Shown one piece after another: positions 39,480-61,370 of a stretch of DNA of 64,000 nt. The stretch spans positions 434,001 through 498,000 of the forward strand of contig NHNW01000033.1 of the NCBI GenBank assembly GCA_002786025.1, written 5' to 3'. Positions within the stretch are counted from its first letter, which is position 1, and every line of letters starts with the position of its first letter. The notes below the pieces were generated by a model. That model did no database searches. It saw only the letters and a list, made by a program, of their open reading frames with translations, and was not told where the DNA came from. This DNA comes from Zasmidium citrigriseum. Lineage: Eukaryota; Ascomycota; Dothideomycetes; Mycosphaerellales; Mycosphaerellaceae. The translations under genes and the position numbers were made by a program.

Positions 39480-40742
39480 ATGTCACAACCTCGCAACGAC
39501 AACCTGCTCTGCTTGCCTGCAGAAATTTTGGGTCGGATCGCCGAGCATTGCGATGTATCAACGGACATTTTCGCCCTCCGATTGACCTGTCGAGATTTAT
39601 CAGGAGCGGCTTTCCTGCCATTCGTGGGAGAGTACATTTCCAAACTCACCTGCTTCATAGTCGACCCAGACCGCTTGTCACGGATCTTGAACATTCTGGC
39701 AATGCCGCATCTACTCGAGAAGGTCCGGATGTTGGTCCTGACGACGAATGCTCATGAAAATCGGTTCAACGTCCATCTTGCACCAAACGATGGAGAAGAT
39801 CGAATCGAAGCAAACATCGACGCACGGGACATATGGGCCGTTGAAGAATATCGGAGGGTTGAATGCCCTACGATGGGCATATCCGCTCAGAACTGGATTA
39901 CTATGGAGCAGATCCTCAACGCTTTTGCCTCCCAATCAAACGACTCCGTTGTTATCGATCTCATCCAAGAGCCTGGAGTCAGCAGCACAGTGGCATTGAA
40001 GCGACCGCAACTACCCAAGGAACTCTTCGAGCTCTGCATAACGTCGGGCTGCAAGCTCACGGGCTTTGAAATGACGGATGAGTATGACGTAGACATTGCA
40101 GACTTCCGACCTAGTGGACGGTTTCATCACCTCTTGCGAGGCTTCGAGAGGTTCCTTTACGCAGCCAAAGACGACACCCGAAACACGATCGATGGTCCAC
40201 TGAGACGTAGACGGGACGACCACTGTGAGCTCGTTGAAACCTTGATGCAGTCTCCTTCAAGCCTACGGACCCTCGAAATCGATGGTAGACAATGGGGTCT
40301 GCCATGGGAGTCTCTGGCCAGCCAAGCGATGTGGAAAAGAGTCCTTCCCCCTGGTCCCGCGTTACCAAACCTACAAGAACTGGATCTCTTGAGCGCAGAC
40401 CTTGAGCGAGATGTTTTTTTACCTTTCCTGGGACGGAGCAGAGACAGCCTGGAGAGGCTTCACCTGCACTTCCCGACGATGAAATACGATGAAGAAAACG
40501 ATCCTTGGACGGACATGTTCGAGTTGTTGCGGACCTTCCCACGGCTGAAGGAGGTCATATTGAAGCAGTTGGCACTGACAGGCCCAAGCGGTGGGACGCT
40601 GTACGAAGTATCGTTCATACTCCCTGGCGAAGATCACAAGAAGAGGTTTTCATCGACGGAGTCGGTCGAGCTCAATGTTCCGGAGTTTCTTGAAATAAAC
40701 ATCGGGAAGCGGCTCATGTACACAGAAATTGAATTTGAGTAG
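39480..40742 (+). CDS. F-box protein
   Basis: An intronless 420-aa protein. The F-box is at the N-terminus (LLCLPAEILGRIAEHCDV... ALRLTCRDLSG), which would bind Skp1 in an SCF ubiquitin ligase. The rest has scattered leucine-rich segments (LRTLEIDG, LPNLQELDLLSADL, SLERLHLHFP, FPRLKEVILKQLAL), like many fungal F-box proteins with weak leucine-rich repeats for substrate choice. The start at 39480 is chosen because the residues before it (frame open to 39342) are low in complexity. Substrate unknown. Confidence 0.85.
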   Translation: MSQPRNDNLLCLPAEILGRIAEHCDVSTDIFALRLTCRDLSGAAFLPFVGEYISKLTCFIVDPDRLSRILNILAMPHLLEKVRMLVLTTNAHENRFNVHLAPNDGEDRIEANIDARDIWAVEEYRRVECPTMGISAQNWITMEQILNAFASQSNDSVVIDLIQEPGVSSTVALKRPQLPKELFELCITSGCKLTGFEMTDEYDVDIADFRPSGRFHHLLRGFERFLYAAKDDTRNTIDGPLRRRRDDHCELVETLMQSPSSLRTLEIDGRQWGLPWESLASQAMWKRVLPPGPALPNLQELDLLSADLERDVFLPFLGRSRDSLERLHLHFPTMKYDEENDPWTDMFELLRTFPRLKEVILKQLALTGPSGGTLYEVSFILPGEDHKKRFSSTESVELNVPEFLEINIGKRLMYTEIEFE

Positions 40743-43128: not shown

Positions 43129-43559
43129 ATGCAAGTCTCAATCTTTTTGACCTTGCTCGGTTCCCTTCACCTTGCGGCATCAATCCCGGGTAAGTCATTC
43201 TTGGAAAGGGTACGCTCGAGACCAAGCTTACATGTAGCGCAGTAAACCCAGCAGCAAAGCTGGCCATTCGTGAGAGCAATGATGTTGAACCAAACGGGGA
43301 CGACTCAGCTGGCAGTACGGGGGTGGTCAATGTGATGCGTCGTGAGGAGAATGTCGATGCCGACGGCGGTGATGACTCTGCTGCCAGCACTGGAGTGGTC
43401 AACGTTATGATTCGCGATGATACCGAGGAATCTGGTGATGACTCGGCTGGGAGCACGGGCGTCGTCAACGTGATGGTTCGAGATCAGTCCAACGAGGCCC
43501 TAGGGGATGGCGACGACTCTGCTGCGAGTACTGGTGTCGTCAATGTGATGAGGAATTGA
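43129..43559 (+). CDS. Secreted repeat-peptide precursor (candidate RiPP precursor)
   Basis: A 125-aa protein from exons 43129-43189 and 43243-43559. Residues 1-18 form a signal peptide (MQVSIFLTLLGSLHLAAS). The rest is four copies of DDSA(G/A)STGVVNVM at residues 40-52, 64-76, 86-98 and 111-123. Between them are acidic spacers of 9-12 residues. Each of the first three copies is followed by (R/I/V)R and then Glu or Asp; AIR-E stands before copy 1. This is the plan of fungal kexin-processed repeat precursors, including those of ustiloxin-type RiPPs: secretion signal, identical cores, basic cleavage sites. Only copy 1 has a true dibasic RR. The core has no Tyr, Phe or Trp, unlike known dikaritins. 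A UstYa gene lies tail-to-tail and a P450 head-to-head. A non-processed repeat wall protein is the alternative. Confidence 0.72.
43299..43550 (+). repeat. Four 39-nt coding repeats in the precursor
   Basis: Copies at 43299-43337, 43371-43409, 43437-43475 and 43512-43550, with periods of 72, 66 and 75 nt. They differ at many third codon positions (the Gly-Val-Val-Asn-Val codons vary in all copies) yet give the same residues except Gly/Ala at place 5. This shows the peptide, not the DNA, is kept. Confidence 0.9.
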
Positions 43560-43840
43560 GCTCACGGTGATGCACTGGATGCGTGTCGAATAGTGTTTTG
43601 AAAGCTGCATTAAAGGTACATAGACGCTGCTGGAACAGACTTTTTTGTAAGGTGTATTTAACCGTTCAATAAAGCGATGGGTATAACATGATTGTTTACC
43701 CCTGTCATTCAACATTGAATATGTTTTGTCTTTCACGGGGACTCTCAGAGGCTCTGTGAAGTGATGCATAAATAAAGCGGTGGGAATATATCTCACCACG
43801 TTTCTGACCCTCACTGTGAAACCGACATCTATGCTTTAAA

Positions 43841-44731
43841 CTACTTCTCCCAAGGCTTACTTCCATCCGGACAGAACTTATACTTGTCCACTTCCGAGAT
43901 GTTTGGATCATCTCTCCCATACGAAGGATCGTAACAGGCGCTATGCTCCTTCGCCCACGATTGCAATTTGTTCCAGTCTCGACATTGACGAGTAGCTCCC
44001 AGACCACCAAGGGGATGGTCTGCATGGAGATTCTGGTGGAGAAGACCCTGGTACAGGAGCGTATCATCGGCATTGCACATGATGCTCTGGAGGAGATATT
44101 CCAGACAGTGTACTGAGTGCATCCGTGGCCAGTCCAGGGAATCACCGTCATAGGCTTGATTCACTGTCGTGCGGAGTAGATGCTGAAAATTTTGTTAGCT
44201 TCGTCGAAGTTCTCATCTGAGGTTGATCTTCAGTACCAGGCAATGTAGCTCGTGTGCACTGTTCAACGTATATACGCCCTTCTTCGAATCCCACGGCCAG
44301 CGCATGGCGTGCAAGACGCCCTTGGACTCAGTGAGAGAGTCATCTAGAGCAACGACCAGATTTCTTTGGTTGACAAGGTCCGATGCCCAGGCTTCGTCTT
44401 CTTCGGTTCGATTATAGCTGTTGAAGGGGCTCTGGTATTCTATCGTTTTGGGGGTGTTGTAGCTGAGCCCGGCTGGGAGAAGTCAGCACAAATTATAAGT
44501 CTTGTCATGGGGTCGCTCCGTACCAATGTTTGTTCTCATCTTGCCCTTTTGCCACAGAGGGTGCAATTTGACGTATGAGTAGACATTCAGGCCCAACGAT
44601 ATGAGTAATGACAGCGACAGCAGAAGTACTGCCCCTGTTCTCCATGAGCTTCTTTGGGCTCCTTGTTCCGAGGGCCGTTTCTCTGCAAGTTCTTCATCTT
44701 GAGACAGGGAGATATATCGTTTTCCAAACAT
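43841..44731 (-). CDS. UstYa-family oxidase (DUF3328)
   Basis: A 261-aa protein from exons 44524-44731, 44237-44472 and 43841-44182. A cytoplasmic N-terminus and one membrane span (about residues 33-54) are followed by a lumenal domain. Both family motifs HxxHC are intact: HELHC at 143-147 and HSVHC at 170-174; the second is followed by LEYLLQSIMCNADDT, close to the family's usual sequence. The second intron falls right after the first motif. UstYa proteins carry out oxidative cyclisation or other oxidations in dikaritin RiPP and some other fungal pathways; they work in the secretory path. Gene end is 281 bases from the end of the repeat precursor. Known clusters often have two UstY-type proteins; only one is here. 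Confidence 0.9.
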
Positions 44732-45415: not shown

Positions 45416-47016
45416 ATGTCAGACACATCAGCGAGAGGGATTTCTGCCCTCACCGGCTCTTTCTTGGGTCTCTCGGTTATAGCCCTGGGATTGCGTTTCG
45501 CGGCTCGATACCGAGCCAAGACCGCGGTCTTATTCGACGACTACCTCATGCTGGCTGCTCTTGTATGTGGTCTCGTTCTACTAGGCATTCTCATCTGTCC
45601 ACTATGCCCATTCCTCCCGCAAGAACCGACTGACCGATATGCGTCTTCCAGGTGTGTTTCATAGGAGCTGCAACATGCGTTTACCTGCGTACGTCCATTC
45701 CATACTGCCAAACTTGACTCAAAACATTCGCTGACCATCCTGAAAGTCGTGGACCTCAAAGCTATAGGTTACTCCTCGTTTGACTTCACAAAGGCAGAAG
45801 TGATCGCACGATATGACAGGATGGAGAAGGCAGGTCATGCTCTTACCGACAATCAAAGTCCCTCTACTAACAAAGGATCTCAGCTCAACACTTCACTCGC
45901 CTGTCTCGCGACCGGTGTCTTCGCTGCCACCAAATCCAGTGCTCTGATCTTCTACAAGCGAATCTTCGGCGTATCAGGACCGGGCAAACGTCTGCGCATC
46001 TTCAACGGACTCGTCAACGCTCTCATCGTCATCATTGTCCTCTGGTTCATTTCCTTTGAGTTCCTGACTATCTTCCAATGCAAAGGCCACTACGACGGGT
46101 TCTGGGATCCCAAGAAATACGCAGAGTACTGTACTGTGACATGGCCTTACCTTCTTGGCTTTACCATCTCAGATGTCATCCTTGACATCTTTGTTCTGGC
46201 ACTGCCTATTCCAAACGTAAGACTACCGCGAGCTAGGAGCTGTACGAAGAAACGAGACCATTCTGATACCGATCATAGATTTTGCATCTCCATACCACGG
46301 TGACAAAGAAGTTGTCGGTTCTGGCTATCTTCATGGTGGCTTGCGTGTATTAGATCCTATCCTCATCGCCGATGGAATGGCACTGACAGTGCTGCACAGG
46401 GCTCTCGGAGCTTCGATAGCACGACTGGTGGTTTATGCGAGAGTGTATACGAGTTTGTCTCTCCCTGATGAAGCGTTTGGGCTTTTTGATGCATTGCTGA
46501 CGATCCCCAGTGGGCGTCGATGCATTCAACCATTACGATTCGGAGAGTGAGTTCCCATCAACTCTAGGTCAACCCTAAAGGCTGTTCTGACGCAAGAATT
46601 CAGAAATTCTCACCCGGATTCTGTTCTACTACATCCTGGAATGCGGATGCTCAATCGTCGCCCTGAACATGCCATCGATCTGGCCCCTAATCAGCGGCGC
46701 CAGCCCCATCGATAAGGTCGTCCAGATGGCTCGCAGCATCCGATCTCTCACATCCACCGGTCGTTCCGATTCTCATGGAAGCAACGAAAACACCGCCAAT
46801 AGGAACGATTCTCACGATGCACAGATGATGAAAGGAAGCGAAGATTTCGGGGCCTCGATTGAATTGGGCCACATTCCGACATCAAGTGATGCTGAAAGAA
46901 GAAAAAGCGAGATCATAAGAGAGGACTCAGTCGAGGTCTATTCGATGACCAAGAGTTCGAGTGAGATATCGCCAGTGGAGAGAGGCTTCGCGGCTAGTTG
47001 TCGTGGAGGTTCGTAG
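45416..47016 (+). CDS. Fungal rhodopsin-fold integral membrane protein
   Basis: A multi-exon gene: 45416-45562, 45652-45688, 45747-46216, 46279-46346, 46400-46452, 46511-46546 and 46604-47016, giving 407 aa. A further 42-nt in-frame intron (45834-45875) is likely, because it ends in a perfect TACTAAC branch site and AAAG; that would give 393 aa. Seven spans are expected; typical family blocks are LRFAARYR, LFDDYLMLAAL, KSSALIFYKRIF, FQCKGHYDGFWD, SDVILDIFVLALPIPN and KKLSVLAIFMVAC. The cytoplasmic tail is polar and Ser-rich. No CFEM domain, so it is not a Pth11-type receptor. Function of the family is unknown (sensor or receptor suspected); members occur often next to secondary-metabolite genes. 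Confidence 0.8.
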
Positions 47017-47051: not shown

Positions 47052-48824
47052 CTAATACAATACCACTTCCTCTACGGCCCCCTGTCTCTTACCCTTAAAC
47101 ATCTCGCCATCCATGATCCCATGAACGTACGCATCCCCAACATGCACATACCCACCTTCTCCACCAGCAACACTACTATCCTTGCGAAGAACATGTGGCA
47201 AGTTTCCATAAAGCAGAGCCCAAACTTCATCACCAACTCGAGCGTCGGGAGGACCGATACCGATGTAGCCTTTCTGCGTGATGAAGAATGACTGATTCAT
47301 CATGGCGTCTCGGAGAGAATGGAAAGTGTGAGTATTTGCTCCGCTCAGTTGCCTCTCGATTGCTGCTACGTCCTCTGGACGAGCTCGACGGTCCTTGTAG
47401 TCGGGGGGTAACACAAGGTCACATATCAGAGTTCGGTAGAAAGCTTCCATGGGATCGACTGAGTCTCCTCCGATGTAGGAGACATCTGGGGGCTGAGTTT
47501 TCAGCCAGGCTGTAAACACGTGTTTAAACCTGCCGCCGATTCTTCGAGCCTCGTCGTTCCATTCGTCTTCGGTGATGTTTTCGTGATCAATAGACTGAGC
47601 AGGGGCCAGAATGGCAATACGATCCACTTGACAGCCCCGTAAAAGAAGGCCATTATTTTCGCAAAGAGTCGGCTCGATGTAGGCCTTTCCATCGCAGTGA
47701 AAGTGCTCCCATCGGCGGCAGTTGGTGAAGTATTCATGGGTCCGTTCAGCTGGGCTTTCCGGACGCATCCAATCGACTGCCCAGGATGGCAATCCGCATG
47801 TTGTCCTGGGCTCTCCATGACGACCGACAAGTGGAAGCAGACCACGATGCTCTCGTATGAGATCCAAGGTAGCCCGTTTGTAAAGCTCCACGACCGTAAG
47901 GCTGTAATCACAGAAAGGTATGCTCGGGAATGGCAGGTCATCGAACAGTCCCATCAATCCAAAAATCTTGTCCTTCGGTTCTTTGGTCTCACGACGTCGC
48001 CAGCGGAAAAATGTCCCAATTGGCGGCTCCCGGATTTGCAGGTTGGCTAGGGGTGTGCAGAAATGATTGAGCAGATGGCCAAGGTCGAAAGTCTGCGACC
48101 ATTGTTGGCAATACTCCCAGCTTCCTGTCATTTCCTTCGATATTCGTTTGAGCAGGTCGAAGGACACAGTCAGATGGCCCCATTGGAGGGTAGAATTGGT
48201 TGGGAGCTGGGCTTCTTGGACAGTCCAGATCCGGTCCCACCAATGTGCCCCTTTCCACGTTGCGAGAGGAGAGCCCATCATTGAAAGAATCGCTCTTCCC
48301 ATGCTCTTACGGGATTGATCACTGGATCTCCCTATTGAACTCGGGTCATTGGTTTCTGGGTCGAGTAGAGCCAATCTCTCGAACGCAGCCTCCACGTCCT
48401 CGGCCGCGAAGCCGCAGCCATCACCCTCTGTCGGCAACTCGCCGATCCATATGATGCCGCCCGCAGATTTGCGGTAAATCTGCTGCATGATGCTGACCTG
48501 TTGTGACTTTTCTTCCTCATTCTTCTGATCGATGCAGAGTTGATCGATCCAGATAGTACGATCCTGGTCTGGCTTTCGAAGCTGGCGCAAGGCTTCGAAG
48601 AGGCTTTTTGTGACAAATTTGTCCAGTCCATCCTGAGCTATGGGTTTCTCGGCCTCCGTTTCGCCCCAACAATATGACAGCGTTTCGTAAGGTATATCGT
48701 GGTCCAGGAGAACCGACTGGCTGCTGCATTTGATCGGGTCGTCCGCCTTCCCAGCCTGGAGCCGGAGGAGGACGATTGACAGTGTCGGCGAAGGACTTGA
48801 AGAAAGCCGTGTGTTGTCAGACAT
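47052..48824 (-). CDS. Heterokaryon incompatibility (HET) domain protein
   Basis: An intronless 590-aa HET protein. Blocks present: YETLSYCWGE, RTIWIDQLCIDQKN with QVSIMQQIYRKSAGGIIWIGE (split here by me) and WWDRIWTVQEAQL. The C-terminal half has the usual KDKIFGLMGL, LPSWAVDW and a final region RVGDEVWALLYG typical of HET family ends. The ATG at 48824 has the better start context than that at 48836. It ends 35 bases from the rhodopsin-fold gene's stop, tail to tail. Likely role: allorecognition or stress-induced cell death. Unrelated in sequence detail to the other HET gene at 15900. Confidence 0.92.
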   Translation of the reverse strand: MSDNTRLSSSPSPTLSIVLLRLQAGKADDPIKCSSQSVLLDHDIPYETLSYCWGETEAEKPIAQDGLDKFVTKSLFEALRQLRKPDQDRTIWIDQLCIDQKNEEEKSQQVSIMQQIYRKSAGGIIWIGELPTEGDGCGFAAEDVEAAFERLALLDPETNDPSSIGRSSDQSRKSMGRAILSMMGSPLATWKGAHWWDRIWTVQEAQLPTNSTLQWGHLTVSFDLLKRISKEMTGSWEYCQQWSQTFDLGHLLNHFCTPLANLQIREPPIGTFFRWRRRETKEPKDKIFGLMGLFDDLPFPSIPFCDYSLTVVELYKRATLDLIREHRGLLPLVGRHGEPRTTCGLPSWAVDWMRPESPAERTHEYFTNCRRWEHFHCDGKAYIEPTLCENNGLLLRGCQVDRIAILAPAQSIDHENITEDEWNDEARRIGGRFKHVFTAWLKTQPPDVSYIGGDSVDPMEAFYRTLICDLVLPPDYKDRRARPEDVAAIERQLSGANTHTFHSLRDAMMNQSFFITQKGYIGIGPPDARVGDEVWALLYGNLPHVLRKDSSVAGGEGGYVHVGDAYVHGIMDGEMFKGKRQGAVEEVVLY

Positions 48825-49281
48825 TTTGGCCGTCATGAGAGCTGTAAAGGAAGTCGTTCAAGCCAGCACTTAGAGATTCACCGGTTTCGGTGCTCTCGTT
48901 TGGCCAGTCGCTATGTGAAGGTTTGACAGAGCATGGTAAGTAGCGCTGCAAGCCTGATAACCTTTGCAAGTTCTGCGCCGCTACGCTCGACGCAAAGTCT
49001 ATTATTATAACATACTGCTGTAGCTGAACAGTCTCCGGGCTGTCTGTGGGCAAGGTCGCTTAGCTGCCAAGGACGCCTCGCAGCATGCACGTTGCCCCCG
49101 CAGTGCCGGCGCGTATATATAGCCGGGCGGCCTCTCGTGCGGGTCAAACTTGTCTTCATGTGATACTTGTCCCAGAACCATCAGCTTTGGTCGTATCCGA
49201 GGGCATTGTCATCACAACCTGTCTATGAATGGTCGTTTTCCAACACAGGAGACCAGCGGCAACAAGGCTGAGCCTGCCATT
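48825..49281. promoter_or_regulatory. HET promoter region with TATA run
   Basis: These 457 bases separate two same-strand genes. A TATATATA run at 49113-49121 could be the HET core promoter, about 290 bases upstream of its ATG. No gene seen. Confidence 0.4.
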
Positions 49282-56135: not shown

Positions 56136-59100
56136 CTAATTCTCAATCTGAGAGAACCACCCACTGAACATCCCTCCCGTATTCCCCCTCGGCGCATACT
56201 GACTCTCTCCTCTCTTCGCAACTCCACTCTTATACATCACATACGCATCCGTCCCACCACAGAACTGTCCCTTGTTCCCAGCACACTTGACTTGACAATG
56301 CGTATCATCCGTCTTGTGAGCCGCAGAATCCAGAGTATTTCCCATCCAGCACTGATCCCCGTTCTTAAGTCCGCAGTAAGCGTACCCGCCCGCTTTGGCT
56401 TTGGCGAGGCATTGTTCGACGGTCATGGAGGACATGCCGGAGTAGACGGGGAGGATGTTGGTTCCGGGGCATTGGTAGCAGCCTTGGGAGGTGTAGCCGT
56501 CGCAGGTTGGGACGATTGAGGGGCCAGGTGGCGGTGTGCTTGAGGTGGAGGATGGCTTTGAGGTTGTTGAGGGTTTTGAGCTCGTCGTGGAGCTGGCGAT
56601 GTAGATTGGCGGAGAGGAAGGGGGTGTCGAGGACGTTGTGGGCTTCACGCTTGAGCTTGAGCTGGAAGCGTAGCTCGGCGGCGAAGAAGGCGGCGTTGAG
56701 GAGGTTTTCGAATTGGTGCTTGAACTCGAAGCGTAGCTCGGTGGAGAAGATGGTGCTGTCGAGCTGGAAGCGTAACTCGGCGGAGAGGAAGGCGGTGTCG
56801 AAGATGTGCTTGAGCTTGGGACGTACTCGGGAGGAGCTTCTTCCTCGTCATCCTCGTCGTCGGGGGCTGGAGTCTCGTCCTCTGGGATATCTTCGTCTTC
56901 TTCGTCCTCATCCGGAACATCCTCATCATCCTCATCCTCAGGCTCATCGCTCTCCTCATAAATTGGCGGCGACGAAGGCGGCGTAGAAGTTGTCGTTGGA
57001 TTGACGCTTGAGCTCAAACTCGAACCGTAGCTGGGCGGTGACGATGGCGCCTTCGATGTCGTCGATGTGGTAGACTCGTAGCTCGGTGGGGACGTCGGTG
57101 CCGTCGAAGACGACTTTGAACTTGAGCTTGACAACGAAGAGCTGCTGCTACTAGACGACGAGCTCGAACTCTCCGAAGAGTAGCTCGGCGGCGGCTCCAC
57201 ACAAGTCGTATTTTCATAAACGCTCAACCCGTCAGGGCCACCACAGATTTGCGTCTTATCCGCCGCACAAGGCATGTTGCAGCGTCCATCGGTAGCCTTA
57301 GTACAAGCCGTGTCCAACGTATTCCCGCAGTAGCACTCCGTCGAGTATTGCGTAGCGAAGTACCTGTAGCCCGTGCAGAACTCAGCGCAGGCTTCGTTGG
57401 TGAGATTCTTGTTGTCGAAGGAATTGGCTTTCAGGGCGCGACCGTTGGGAATCTCCTTGTAGCAGTCGACGTAGGTGTAGCAGCCGGCTGTGGGCACTGT
57501 CGTTGGGCCGGTGGTCTTCGAGGTCGATGAGCTAGAGGTCTTCGTGGAGGATGTGCTTGTCGAAGAGCTGCTCGGAATTGAAAAGCTGCGGGAAGACGAC
57601 GAGGAAGTCTCAGCTTTGGTAATCGGCGTCTCAGATGAACTCGTCGAGGTGACAGACGAACAAATCGGCGCATCAACCAACTTGCCCCCAACACATCCAT
57701 TATATGCCTTCGGACTGCCAACACTTTTCTTCAGATAGCAATTAAACCCAACAACACTGAAGCCCTTGCAACCCGCAGTCTTTGCACACTCCTTGGCACA
57801 CGCAGTCCTGGGATTCTTGTCATAGCCGCAGTCGACGTACTTCAGATCGCCGCCGACGAAGTCCGTGTCGCACATGATCTCGAAGTTTGCGCCGCCTTCG
57901 CAGGAGTAGGCTGCTCCGTTGCAAGCGGGGCACGAGATATCGGTTGTTGATGGGAGACAGGATGTTGTCGGCGGTGGGATTGAAGTTGATGGCGGAGGTA
58001 CTGAAGTACTGCTCGGCGGGACACTGCTCGATGACTTGCTCGTTGACGGCTCGTAGCTGCTAGGAGGAGGAGCCGTTGTTGATGGGATGCTGGATGACTT
58101 GCTTGTCGACGAAGTACTGCTGCTGCTCGCAACGCTAATGGATGTCTCGCTCGTTGATTCCTCGTAGCTGCTCGGAGGAGTTGTCGTTGATGGAACGCTA
58201 GAAGACTGACTCGTCGATTCCTCATAGCTGCTCGGCGGAGTCGTAACCGGCTGCGAGCTAGTCGAACTCGAAGGGACCGTAGCAGGCGTCGTAGAGTTTG
58301 CATACGAAGTGGTGTTGTAATGCGGGATGAAAGTGCTCTTCGTACTGGATGAGAAAGACGTCTCTGGCACGGTTGTCTGGGTCGTCTCTGTTATTGTCGA
58401 TATGGTCGACTTTGTTCCAGTACTTGTTGTTGTTGTCCCTTTCGTTGTTATCGTCGTCTCCTCTAGACAGGTTGTCGTATACACCGTAGTTAAGTCTGAG
58501 GTCGTGTAGCCTGGAGGAGGAAGCGGAGGCGCCGAGGTACTGCTGGACTCGATGGGCTTTGTGGATGAGGGTGTTTCAGGAACTGTCGTGTGAATCGTTT
58601 CCGTTACTGTGGATGTCGTCAATTCTGTTCCAGTACTAACAGAAGCCGTCCCGCTTGTTGTGATGGTGCTTTCGACTGGACATATCGTGGTATAAACCGT
58701 TGTGACTTCAGAAGTTGTGTATCCCGGAGGCGGCGGTGGCTCTGAGGTCGCCGGAACAATGGTTTCGTACGTCTCGGTCTTTGTAGATGTAGTCAAATCT
58801 GTGCCCGTGCTCACGGATGTCGTGCCTTTTGTTGTTATGGTGCTCTCGACTGGACAGATAGTGGTATAAACCGCGGTAACCTCCGAAGTGGTGTATCCAA
58901 GAGGCGATTCCGGAGGCGGAGTGACTTCTTCCACAGGCAGAGTCGTCGTGATTGTCGAGGTGATCGTCGAAGTAGTCATTCTGGTTAAAGTACTCGTTAT
59001 GGTGGTGCCACTGGTCGTAATGGTGCTCTCCTCGGGACAGACCGTAGTGTAGACCTTAGTGATCTCGCTCGTAGTCATGCCAGGAGGCGGCACATCCTCA

Positions 59101-61370
59101 TCAGAATCGTCGTCCTCTTCGTCCTCTGGAGTCTCTTCAGGCTCATCATCGTCATCCTCATCCTCGGCTGGTGGATTCTCGTCCTGCGGAATATCTTCAT
59201 CATCCTCATCCTCGGCTGGTGGGGTCTCGTCCTGTGGAACTTCTTCATCGTCCTCATCTTCCGGCACAGGAGTCTCTCCCTCTGGAATTTCTCCATCATC
59301 CTCATCCTCTGGAGCAGGGATGTCGTCCTCTGGAGCATCCTCATCTTCATCTTCATCGTCCTCGGCAGGAGTTTCGTACTCAGGAGGAACTTCTTCCTCA
59401 TCATCTTCGTCCCCGGGAACAGAAGTCTCTGGAACATCCTCATCATCCCCATCTTCAGGAATCTCCTCGGGCGTATCCGGAACATCCTCTTCTTCATCGT
59501 CATCCTCATACGATGGCGGCGCAGTCTCCTCAGGTCCAGCCACATCCTCCTCATCATCATCGTCCTCATCATCAAAATCCTCATCCTCCTCCGGCACCTC
59601 CGTCGGCGTCGCATAAGGCGGCGCCCCATCACTCCCAGGCATAGGCGTAGCACCCACAGGCAAATCACTCCCCGCAGCCACACTCGAAATACTCTCAACC
59701 TCACTGACAGGACAAACAGTCGTAAATTCCGAAACCGTCGTAGTCACAGCCGGCACGGTCTGGCTCGCGGCGGGACAATTCGTGATCGTGGATGCGCACT
59801 TCAGGACCGTGATGGTTCGGGTTTGCTTGATCGTTGCGGTGGTCATTGATGCGCCGTCTTGAGAGCATGAGCCTGGTGGGGAGACGCAGATGGCGTAGTT
59901 GGCCCAAAGATTCCAGCAATTTGCATCAGCTTGAGGATTCCATTCCAGCAGATCATCGACCTCGATGCCGTTGGTCTTGGCGATTGTTTCGCAGGTGTCG
60001 CCGGCTTTGACGTCGTAGTATTTTTGACAGCCTGCGGAGGTGCCGGGTTGGGTGTTTTCTGGTGCTGAGGCCGAGCAGGTGCTTGAGCCGTCTGTTCCTG
60101 TGTGTTGTTAGCAATCAAAGAAGAAAGCATGTCGGGATATTCTTACCTCCTCCAGTACCAGTAGGGAAATCACTGTCTTCATCATCATCCTCCTCATCTT
60201 GGCCGTCGTCCGTCTCTTCGCCCTCATCTCCAGCATCGATGTCCTCATCATCACCATCATCGTAGGAAGGCGGGCTACCAGAAGATCCGCCATCCCCCTC
60301 CTCAACATGCGTATAATTAACAGGCGGCACAGGCGCAGCACTCGGAATGAAATCCGGCTTATCAGGCTGACAAGCCGGACTCGACGCATTCGGGTCCACA
60401 GTGGTCTGCGACGGAGCACCAGAACCATCGGTCTTGGTCGGTAAAGAACCAGTTCCTGTTCCAGTCCCATAGCCCGTCGAGTTACTCGAAGAACCATTCA
60501 GACAATCCACACTGTCGCTGCTCCCAGAAGTATCGGTGAAGTTATACTGACTGCAAGATTGATACGGCATGATGCTGACGCTCTTGACGAACATGCTGTA
60601 CGGGAATTTTGTGAGATCCGTATACCCGCCGGCCCATTGCACGGTATACCACGCCACACCCTCATTCCCAGCATCCCAGACACCAAGATGGAAGCGTGAG
60701 GGCGTTTGCGGGTATTGATACTGTCCATCATCCCCATCCTTAGCATAAAGCGTGCGAATCGTCTTCCCATCAATCATCCACGTAATCGATTCCGGTTTCC
60801 AGTCGATGGTGTATGTCATGAAGTGTTGAGTCATATTCTTCTCCACCTGTGGCTGCGTCCCTCGATCATAGTTCCCCGTAATCCCTTTTCCAAAATAATT
60901 CGTCTGGATCGTTGGTTTGTCTAGAGCGAAATCATTCCCGCTCCATTCCCAGTCAATCTCATCCAGCGTGTCGGACATCAAGACTGCGGAGGAGATGACG
61001 CCGATGCCGGGGGCGGATTGGAGCGTGACTTCGACTTTGCCGTAGTGGAGGTAGTTTTTTGTCCAGATGTAGGGGGCGTCGGTGCCTTTGGTGAGTCGAA
61101 ACTCGAGGCCTTTGTCGGAGAAGGAGAGGAGGTGGTCCGCGTAGTCGGCGATGATCCAGTCTGAGGGGATGTTGGGGCGGGTTGTGAAGTCCATGGATAG
61201 GGGGGCGGTGAAGCCTGGGAGGGGTGGGCAGGGGCCTGGAAGCTCTTGTTAGTATCATGATCTGCACATTTCTGATGTTTCTTACCTTTCGTTGGATTGC
61301 ATGGCCCTTGCGCAGCTACCAAGCTTGCAGCAGCTGCAAGGCTGGCAGCGATAAGCTTCAGTCGTGCCAT
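56136..61370 (-). CDS. Giant secreted wall protein: GH16 (Crh-like)-LysM-mucin-apple-WSC-WSC
   Basis: A 1711-aa protein from exons 61286-61370, 60147-61235 and 56136-60097. Order: signal peptide (1-20); GH16 domain (about 33-260) with catalytic E121-I-D-W-E125, as in Crh chitin-glucan transglycosylases; a Gly/Ser and acidic linker; LysM domain (about 415-466, CQKYYDVKAGDTC to YAICVSPP); acidic Pro-Glu-Asp region (about 555-730); four Thr-rich tandem repeats (about 732-970); Ser/Thr/PPSY linker; apple-like cysteine domain (about 1110-1208); WSC domain (about 1263-1358); acidic and Ser-rich linkers; second WSC-like domain (about 1586-1690). No C-terminal hydrophobic tail, so no GPI anchor. GH16 would link wall polymers, while LysM binds chitin and WSC binds glucan. 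The intron joins are strong (GTAAGA donors, CTAAC branch sites). Confidence 0.87.
58365..59078 (-). repeat. Four tandem Thr-rich coding repeats
   Basis: Copies begin near 59078, 58895, 58720 and 58510 on the minus strand, about 180-210 nt apart. Each reads TTS(E/D)(V/I/L)T-x-VYTT-x-C-x-EST/ETTITT-x-GT, then a Thr/Ser run ending in VP. The single Cys in each may cross-link; Thr would be O-mannosylated. Confidence 0.85.
59090..59610 (-). repeat. Acidic PEDEDDE low-complexity coding repeat
   Basis: About 520 nt of short repeats that encode Pro-Glu-Asp runs such as PPAEDEDDE(D/E)IPQDE in the wall protein. A shorter like patch lies at about 56820-56960. The mirror plus frame (59059-59616) is a Ser-rich shadow. 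Confidence 0.85.

Follow-up and report, generated by a model that had tools for sequence, protein, structure and literature searches.

A probable UstYa-type peptide precursor and oxidase pair with an aromatic-free core, its two paralogous sets and a linked seven-transmembrane gene in a fungal genome

A small secreted repeat protein is encoded next to a UstYa-family (DUF3328) oxidase in the window, the whole 64-kb stretch of contig C76 that was analyzed from a 44.4-Mb fungal genome. The pair is real and probably functional, and we consider it likely that the protein is a ribosomal peptide precursor modified by the neighboring oxidase. The description that fits best is a RiPP set of the UstYa type whose core lacks aromatic residues, with a motif common to three paralogues and a seven-transmembrane (7TM) gene that is probably co-inherited. 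The initial annotation had reported a secreted 125-aa precursor of four units beside a DUF3328 gene with both HxxHC motifs; this is confirmed in the sequence, and two paralogous pairs, convergent in the same way, strengthen the pairing.

The precursor gene (43129..43559, + strand) was modeled, like the other window genes, by eye. Exon 1 (43129-43189) encodes the signal peptide MQVSIFLTLLGSLHLAASIP, a hydrophobic N-terminus by crude hydropathy only, and one base of a split codon. It is followed by a 53-nt GT..AG intron in phase 1 (43190-43242) and by exon 2 (43243-43559), which consists of 104 full codons (43245-43556) and the stop (43557-43559); the product thus has 20 + 1 split + 104 codons, or 125 aa. 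Read from the sequence, it holds four DDSA(G/A)STGVVNVM units on the + strand: DDSAGSTGVVNVM at 43299..43337 (followed by RR-EE), DDSAASTGVVNVM at 43371..43409 (IR-DD), DDSAGSTGVVNVM again at 43437..43475 (VR-DQ), and DDSAASTGVVNVM at 43512..43550 (RN and the stop). The spacers between the units are acidic and differ from each other, with Arg after every core (RR, IR, VR and the terminal RN). RR is the one dibasic site in exon 2, the other boundaries being Ile- or Val-Arg before Asp, and processing of all four units by the standard Kex2 route is doubtful because of this single site. The absence of aromatic residues from the core, pointed out initially, holds for the entire exon 2, which has no Phe, Trp, Tyr or Cys and 22 Asp or Glu residues.

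The units differ at synonymous sites with a mean pairwise pS of 0.64 over 9.3 sites (4-7 synonymous changes per pair), and at nonsynonymous sites with a pN of 0.034 over 29.7 sites, the G/A position alone being variable. With high pS and low pN between units, the repeat is real and of no recent origin, and the peptide that it encodes is conserved; the amino-acid constraint on the core units is strong. No homologue of the precursor was found at E<=10 among the 365 candidates scored (those with common short words), and a search of its own genome matched only the precursor itself. Outside the precursor locus, the repeats found in the window are only those of a long WSC/LysM protein with acidic low-complexity stretches (56139-60107, - strand) and of frames that overlap it.

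The oxidase gene (43841..44731, - strand) has three exons, an N-terminal hydrophobic anchor recognized by eye, and both motifs, HELHC and HSVHC. Its last exon alone matches PF11807 with 60.9 bits (cut-off 25). The precursor stop at 43559 and the oxidase stop at 43841 face each other, so that the genes are convergent and about 280 bp apart. The nearest named relative of the window UstYa is a PF11807 protein of Zasmidium cellare (65% identity), which points to a fungus of the Mycosphaerellales. The approximate exon boundaries were taken from the alignment with this protein, and the nine matched relatives include proteins of Zasmidium cellare, Cladobotryum mycophilum and Myriangium duriaei, among others. 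No relative of the last exon was found among solved structures. Genome-wide, 43 UstYa matches fall into 24 loci, and the neighborhoods of the 23 loci outside the window were examined in 25 stretches of about 10 kb.

Two of these loci, on contigs C120 and C63 (stretches L025 and L031), carry paralogous sets. The last UstYa exon of the window has its nearest own-genome relatives there (C120, 49% identity and 119 bits; C63, 47% and 92 bits), the next best match scoring 45 bits. The reciprocal search, run from the C120 copy alone, returned the window with 120 bits and C63 with 111 bits, followed by 56 bits. At both loci, the space between the UstYa and 7TM genes is occupied by a small ORF whose start is strongly hydrophobic and which, like the window precursor, converges on UstYa. 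Both small ORFs are interrupted by a single GT-AG intron (of 49 nt and 56 nt, respectively), which lies in phase 1 as it does in the window. The splice sites were chosen by eye; an alternative L025 acceptor, giving an Arg-rich frame, is possible. The acidic last exons end in ..DAGSDDSTEDDSAGEHKLFNN (L025) and ..ADAAESSDGSDDSPGSVSLCAN (L031), and the products, of about 54-56 aa, have a single tail and no repeats. DDSAG or DDSPG stands seven residues ahead of the stop, and the tails after the motif differ (STGVVNVM.. in the window, EHKLFNN and SVSLCAN in the paralogues), all three ending in Asn.

The motif DDS[AP][GA], which was defined post hoc, after the sequences had been seen, arises in 0.25% of the composition-preserving shuffles for one tail and in 1.1% for the other, both tails being rich in Asp and Ser. 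Six-frame translation of the 25 stretches gave four occurrences in 499,898 residues; two are the L025 and L031 tails, and the others lie in L021 and L033. A common DDS(A/P)G motif followed by differing tails resembles the recognition motif of a RiPP ahead of its variable core, and the three genes look like a family of this kind in which the core is repeated in the window and single in the paralogues. The initial annotation took DDSA(G/A)STGVVNVM as a whole for the repeat: the four units stand, but comparison with the paralogues points to DDSA(G) as the recognition sequence, with only what follows it as the variable core.

The gene order is common to L025 and L031 (a proline-iminopeptidase-like gene, UstYa, precursor, 7TM gene), the iminopeptidase-like genes scoring below the curated TIGR01250 cut-off. 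The window order differs, which speaks against a strictly conserved cassette, with the 7TM gene beyond UstYa and a cytochrome P450 gene beyond the precursor, and the window set yielded no iminopeptidase match. Adjoining the L025 set is a gene for a CmcJ/NvfI-family oxidoreductase (NF041278; L025:2283-2783, + strand).

The 7TM gene, which the initial annotation did not mention, belongs to PF20684 (fungal rhodopsin / PTH11-like, seven-transmembrane) and has several exons (45416..47016, + strand), one of which matches the profile with 57.4 bits (cut-off 27). Both paralogous sets contain a PF20684 gene as well. The genome has 121 PF20684 matches in about 73 genes, and among these the two nearest relatives of the window exon are the genes of C120 (43% identity, 78 bits) and C63 (28%, 46 bits, barely above C148 with 43 bits). 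Queried in turn, the C120 gene matched C63 with 90 bits and the window with 79 bits (next 33), and the C63 gene matched C120 with 71 bits and the window with 49 bits (next 42). The nearest 7TM paralogues of the window gene thus adjoin the same two UstYa genes that are nearest to the window oxidase, and on this ground the oxidase, precursor and 7TM gene have probably been inherited as a set, though their order differs. A PF20684 gene lies within 2.1 kb of UstYa at 5 of the 24 UstYa loci; random placement with a limit of 2.5 kb gave a mean of 0.26 loci and reached five in none of 20,000 placements, but it ignores that both families may favor the same genome regions, and the reciprocal paralogy is for that reason the stronger evidence.

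Outside the genome, the 7TM query gave a single match at E<=1e-10, in Xylariales sp. No.14919, with a sensitivity lowered by the query being a partial gene that still contains an intron; by organism names, the UstYa and 7TM match lists have no organism in common. The excerpts of PMC9731116, PMC6339444, PMC7099791, PMC11774914, PMC10512326 and PMC12196386 used here describe no 7TM gene tied to a UstYa cluster, and one PTH11-type gene is among the 22 genes of a RiPP cluster predicted in T. reesei, its role being left uncommented in the excerpts of PMC7099791. About 14 kb to the left of the window, stretch L017 (C76:413500-423499) has UstYa matches on both strands, a repeat array and a PF20684 gene, and may be a fourth set that includes a 7TM gene. 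Near a contig end, UstYa and PF20684 matches lie within 0.5 kb of each other without a recognized precursor (L034:1-3000, contig C73); the small ORF at L034:8222 (+ strand) has a hydrophobic N-terminus and contains YGGTGWPC twice.

UstYa/DUF3328 is the class-defining enzyme of the dikaritins (ustiloxin, phomopsin, asperipin-2a and epichloecyclin), and Tyr is present in the core of ustiloxin, phomopsin and asperipin-2a. The window pair resembles these systems in a UstYa-family oxidase with two HxxHC motifs, a secreted precursor nearby and a tandem core, here of four units. It differs from them in a core without Phe, Trp or Tyr, in single-tail paralogous precursors and in a linked PF20684 gene. 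The dikaritin-type reading of the initial annotation is kept in its enzyme, secreted precursor and tandem core, while the Kex2 spacing of the ustiloxin type is missing, with one RR in place of regular dibasic sites. KEPs are defined by at least three repeats of at least eight residues between KR, KK, RK or RR (PMC7329392, Umemura 2020). The window precursor resembles the KEPs treated in excerpts of PMC7329392 and PMC6339444 in its signal peptide and in its four tandem repeats, each at least eight residues long, but its repeats lack such bounds apart from the single RR, and with dibasic Kex2 sites nearly absent it falls outside the definition. According to the same kingdom-wide survey, 22% of 7878 KEPs are near DUF3328 genes, and Tyr occurs in 65.6% of the repeats of these (PMC7329392). 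An aromatic core is, by this figure, typical rather than required, and Tyr-free pairs of precursor and UstYa form a minority for which there is precedent.

Ustiloxin-style repeat arrays were found within about 1.2 kb of UstYa at 8 of the 23 loci outside the window, or 9 of 24 with the window, which is a count and not an enrichment. Shadow frames of true arrays were dropped, as was L013, whose three irregular copies within a single frame looked by eye like chance or a shadow frame and with which the count would be 10 of 24. Tyr, Phe or Trp is present in the repeat of seven of the nine arrays and absent in those of the window and L014. Of the eight arrays outside the window, two (L011 and L024) have a signal peptide encoded in the array's own frame. 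The second aromatic-free array, on C119, lies beside two UstYa genes (L014:1475-2629, - strand) and is built of the units DLSALTDLLSTGGL(K)(A/E)RQ and TEILDELTKSLP(T/A/V)RQ, mostly with a single Arg before Gln as the boundary. The remaining seven (L010, L011, L012, L017, L023, L024 and L027) include units such as WSSPDAYTIPK (16 copies), NDDVYHSKDGGIIKK, VPPIYRPLVNVALPP, RDGSTEFDPDAFLK, HDETYYYLK, CTGAQCFKAWK and DDTNIFCSK. Beside the 5.25 KEPs per ascomycete strain given in PMC7329392, this is a rich set, although the criteria of the two counts differ.

Gene structures, motifs, paralogy and the convergent layout are the observed part of the proposed explanation, and the chemistry would follow the DUF3328 enzyme CctR. 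Excerpts of PMC12435403 describe DUF3328 proteins as copper enzymes that act on C(sp3)-H in organelle lumens, and CctR as one that uses O2, electrons and two copper ions held by HxxHC(x)nHxxHC to hydroxylate an aliphatic carbon. CctR is anchored in the membrane, and its catalytic part has been proposed to reside in an organelle lumen. The window oxidase shares the HxxHC(x)nHxxHC arrangement and the N-terminal membrane anchor with CctR and the cyclochlorotine DUF3328 enzymes, whereas the CctR substrate is a nonribosomal cyclic peptide and that of the window pair would be a ribosomal precursor. The initial annotation had held that a core without aromatic residues needs new chemistry, which is too strong in view of the aliphatic hydroxylation by CctR (PMC12435403).

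By its signal peptide, the precursor would enter the secretory pathway, where the lumenal domain of the membrane-anchored oxidase may bind the acidic DDSA(G/A) motif. A binuclear copper centre, by analogy with CctR, would then oxidize the aliphatic and polar core STGVVNVM that follows; Val, Asn or Thr would most likely be hydroxylated or joined in an aliphatic crosslink, rather than an aryl ether being formed. Cleavage after the Arg behind each core, suggested by its position (RR before E, IR or VR before D, and a lone terminal R), would free four near-identical peptides. The two paralogous sets would make different peptides, each a single tail behind the same motif.

Among the alternatives, an acidic secreted repeat protein of the wall or matrix, or an effector, could work uncut, with the oxidase acting elsewhere and its adjacency incidental. 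The near absence of dibasic sites, the acidic composition and the lack of a scored homologue would suit such a protein; however, the two paralogous UstYa genes likewise have small secreted ORFs convergent with them, in which the intron phase and the DDS motif recur, and since the paralogue products are without repeats, a structural role of the repeat is not conserved. We regard this explanation as unlikely. A linear, unmodified signaling peptide akin to the KEP pheromones, read by the 7TM protein while the oxidase has another job, would fit the PF20684 gene beside UstYa at all three paralogous loci, yet PF20684 is presumably not the pheromone-receptor family. In the excerpts of the KEP survey, moreover, all but three pheromone-annotated KEPs lie away from DUF3328 genes (PMC7329392), whereas UstYa is the best conserved part here, and this explanation appears improbable. 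The precursor might also serve the oxidase as a partner rather than a substrate, an acidic peptide that brings it copper: every core contains a single candidate Cu(I) ligand (Met, His and Cys in the three paralogues), and the CctR authors postulate a helper supplying Cu(I) or electrons (PMC12435403). The position of the ligand is not conserved, however, and a secreted, variable and once four-fold repeated peptide would be an odd metallochaperone; this option is highly improbable.

The neighboring genes raise the further, highly improbable alternative of a small-molecule pathway to which the repeat gene is a bystander, since a P450 (PF00067; 40862..42414, - strand), adjoining the precursor, and a FAD-linked, berberine-bridge-like oxidase in two open frames (PF01565 and PF08031; 37677..39187, + strand) lie within 6 kb of the precursor and could form a cluster with UstYa. 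Against this, the 29 chosen window frames scanned against Pfam contain no synthase. The nearest relatives of the N-terminal exon of the P450 (C63:27967, C103 and C60) are far from any UstYa match, and a P450 heme-site pattern has no match in L025 or L031, the 10 kb around either paralogous UstYa. In the genome-wide P450 search, which scored 92 of 229 candidates, the window's own P450 is absent among the matches listed, and this search counts neither for nor against its membership. Nothing ties the P450 to the set, and the membership implied by the co-expression check of the initial annotation is not supported. The FAD-linked oxidase is a possible but unproven tailoring enzyme. No tyrosinase was found in the same 29 frames; the surroundings also include an ORF without a Pfam match (39480-40742, + strand) and a HET gene (47052-48836, - strand).

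The modified ribosomal peptide remains our preferred explanation, and on linkage and co-paralogy the 7TM protein possibly senses it. A bolder and quite tentative extension is a self-contained signaling cassette, present three times in this genome, in which a copper oxidase modifies a ribosomal peptide that the adjoining 7TM receptor senses, the ligand core having changed in each copy and the recognition motif having been kept; alternatively, the 7TM protein may be a sensor controlling the cluster or may serve in self-protection. If the cassette is true, its RiPP would act as a hormone of the fungus and not as a toxin, and ligand, modifying enzyme and receptor would be encoded together. Receptors for fungal repeat peptides were left as a question by Le Marquer et al. 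(PMC6339444, in excerpt), on which a candidate receptor gene linked to a ligand gene would bear. The three putative natural substrate-enzyme pairs, with the same motif and different cores, make the action of UstYa on aromatic-free peptides testable. Finally, UstYa loci without a visible repeat are a puzzle raised for lichen clusters (PMC12048977, in excerpt), and the paralogous sets suggest that such loci can hide single-core precursors.
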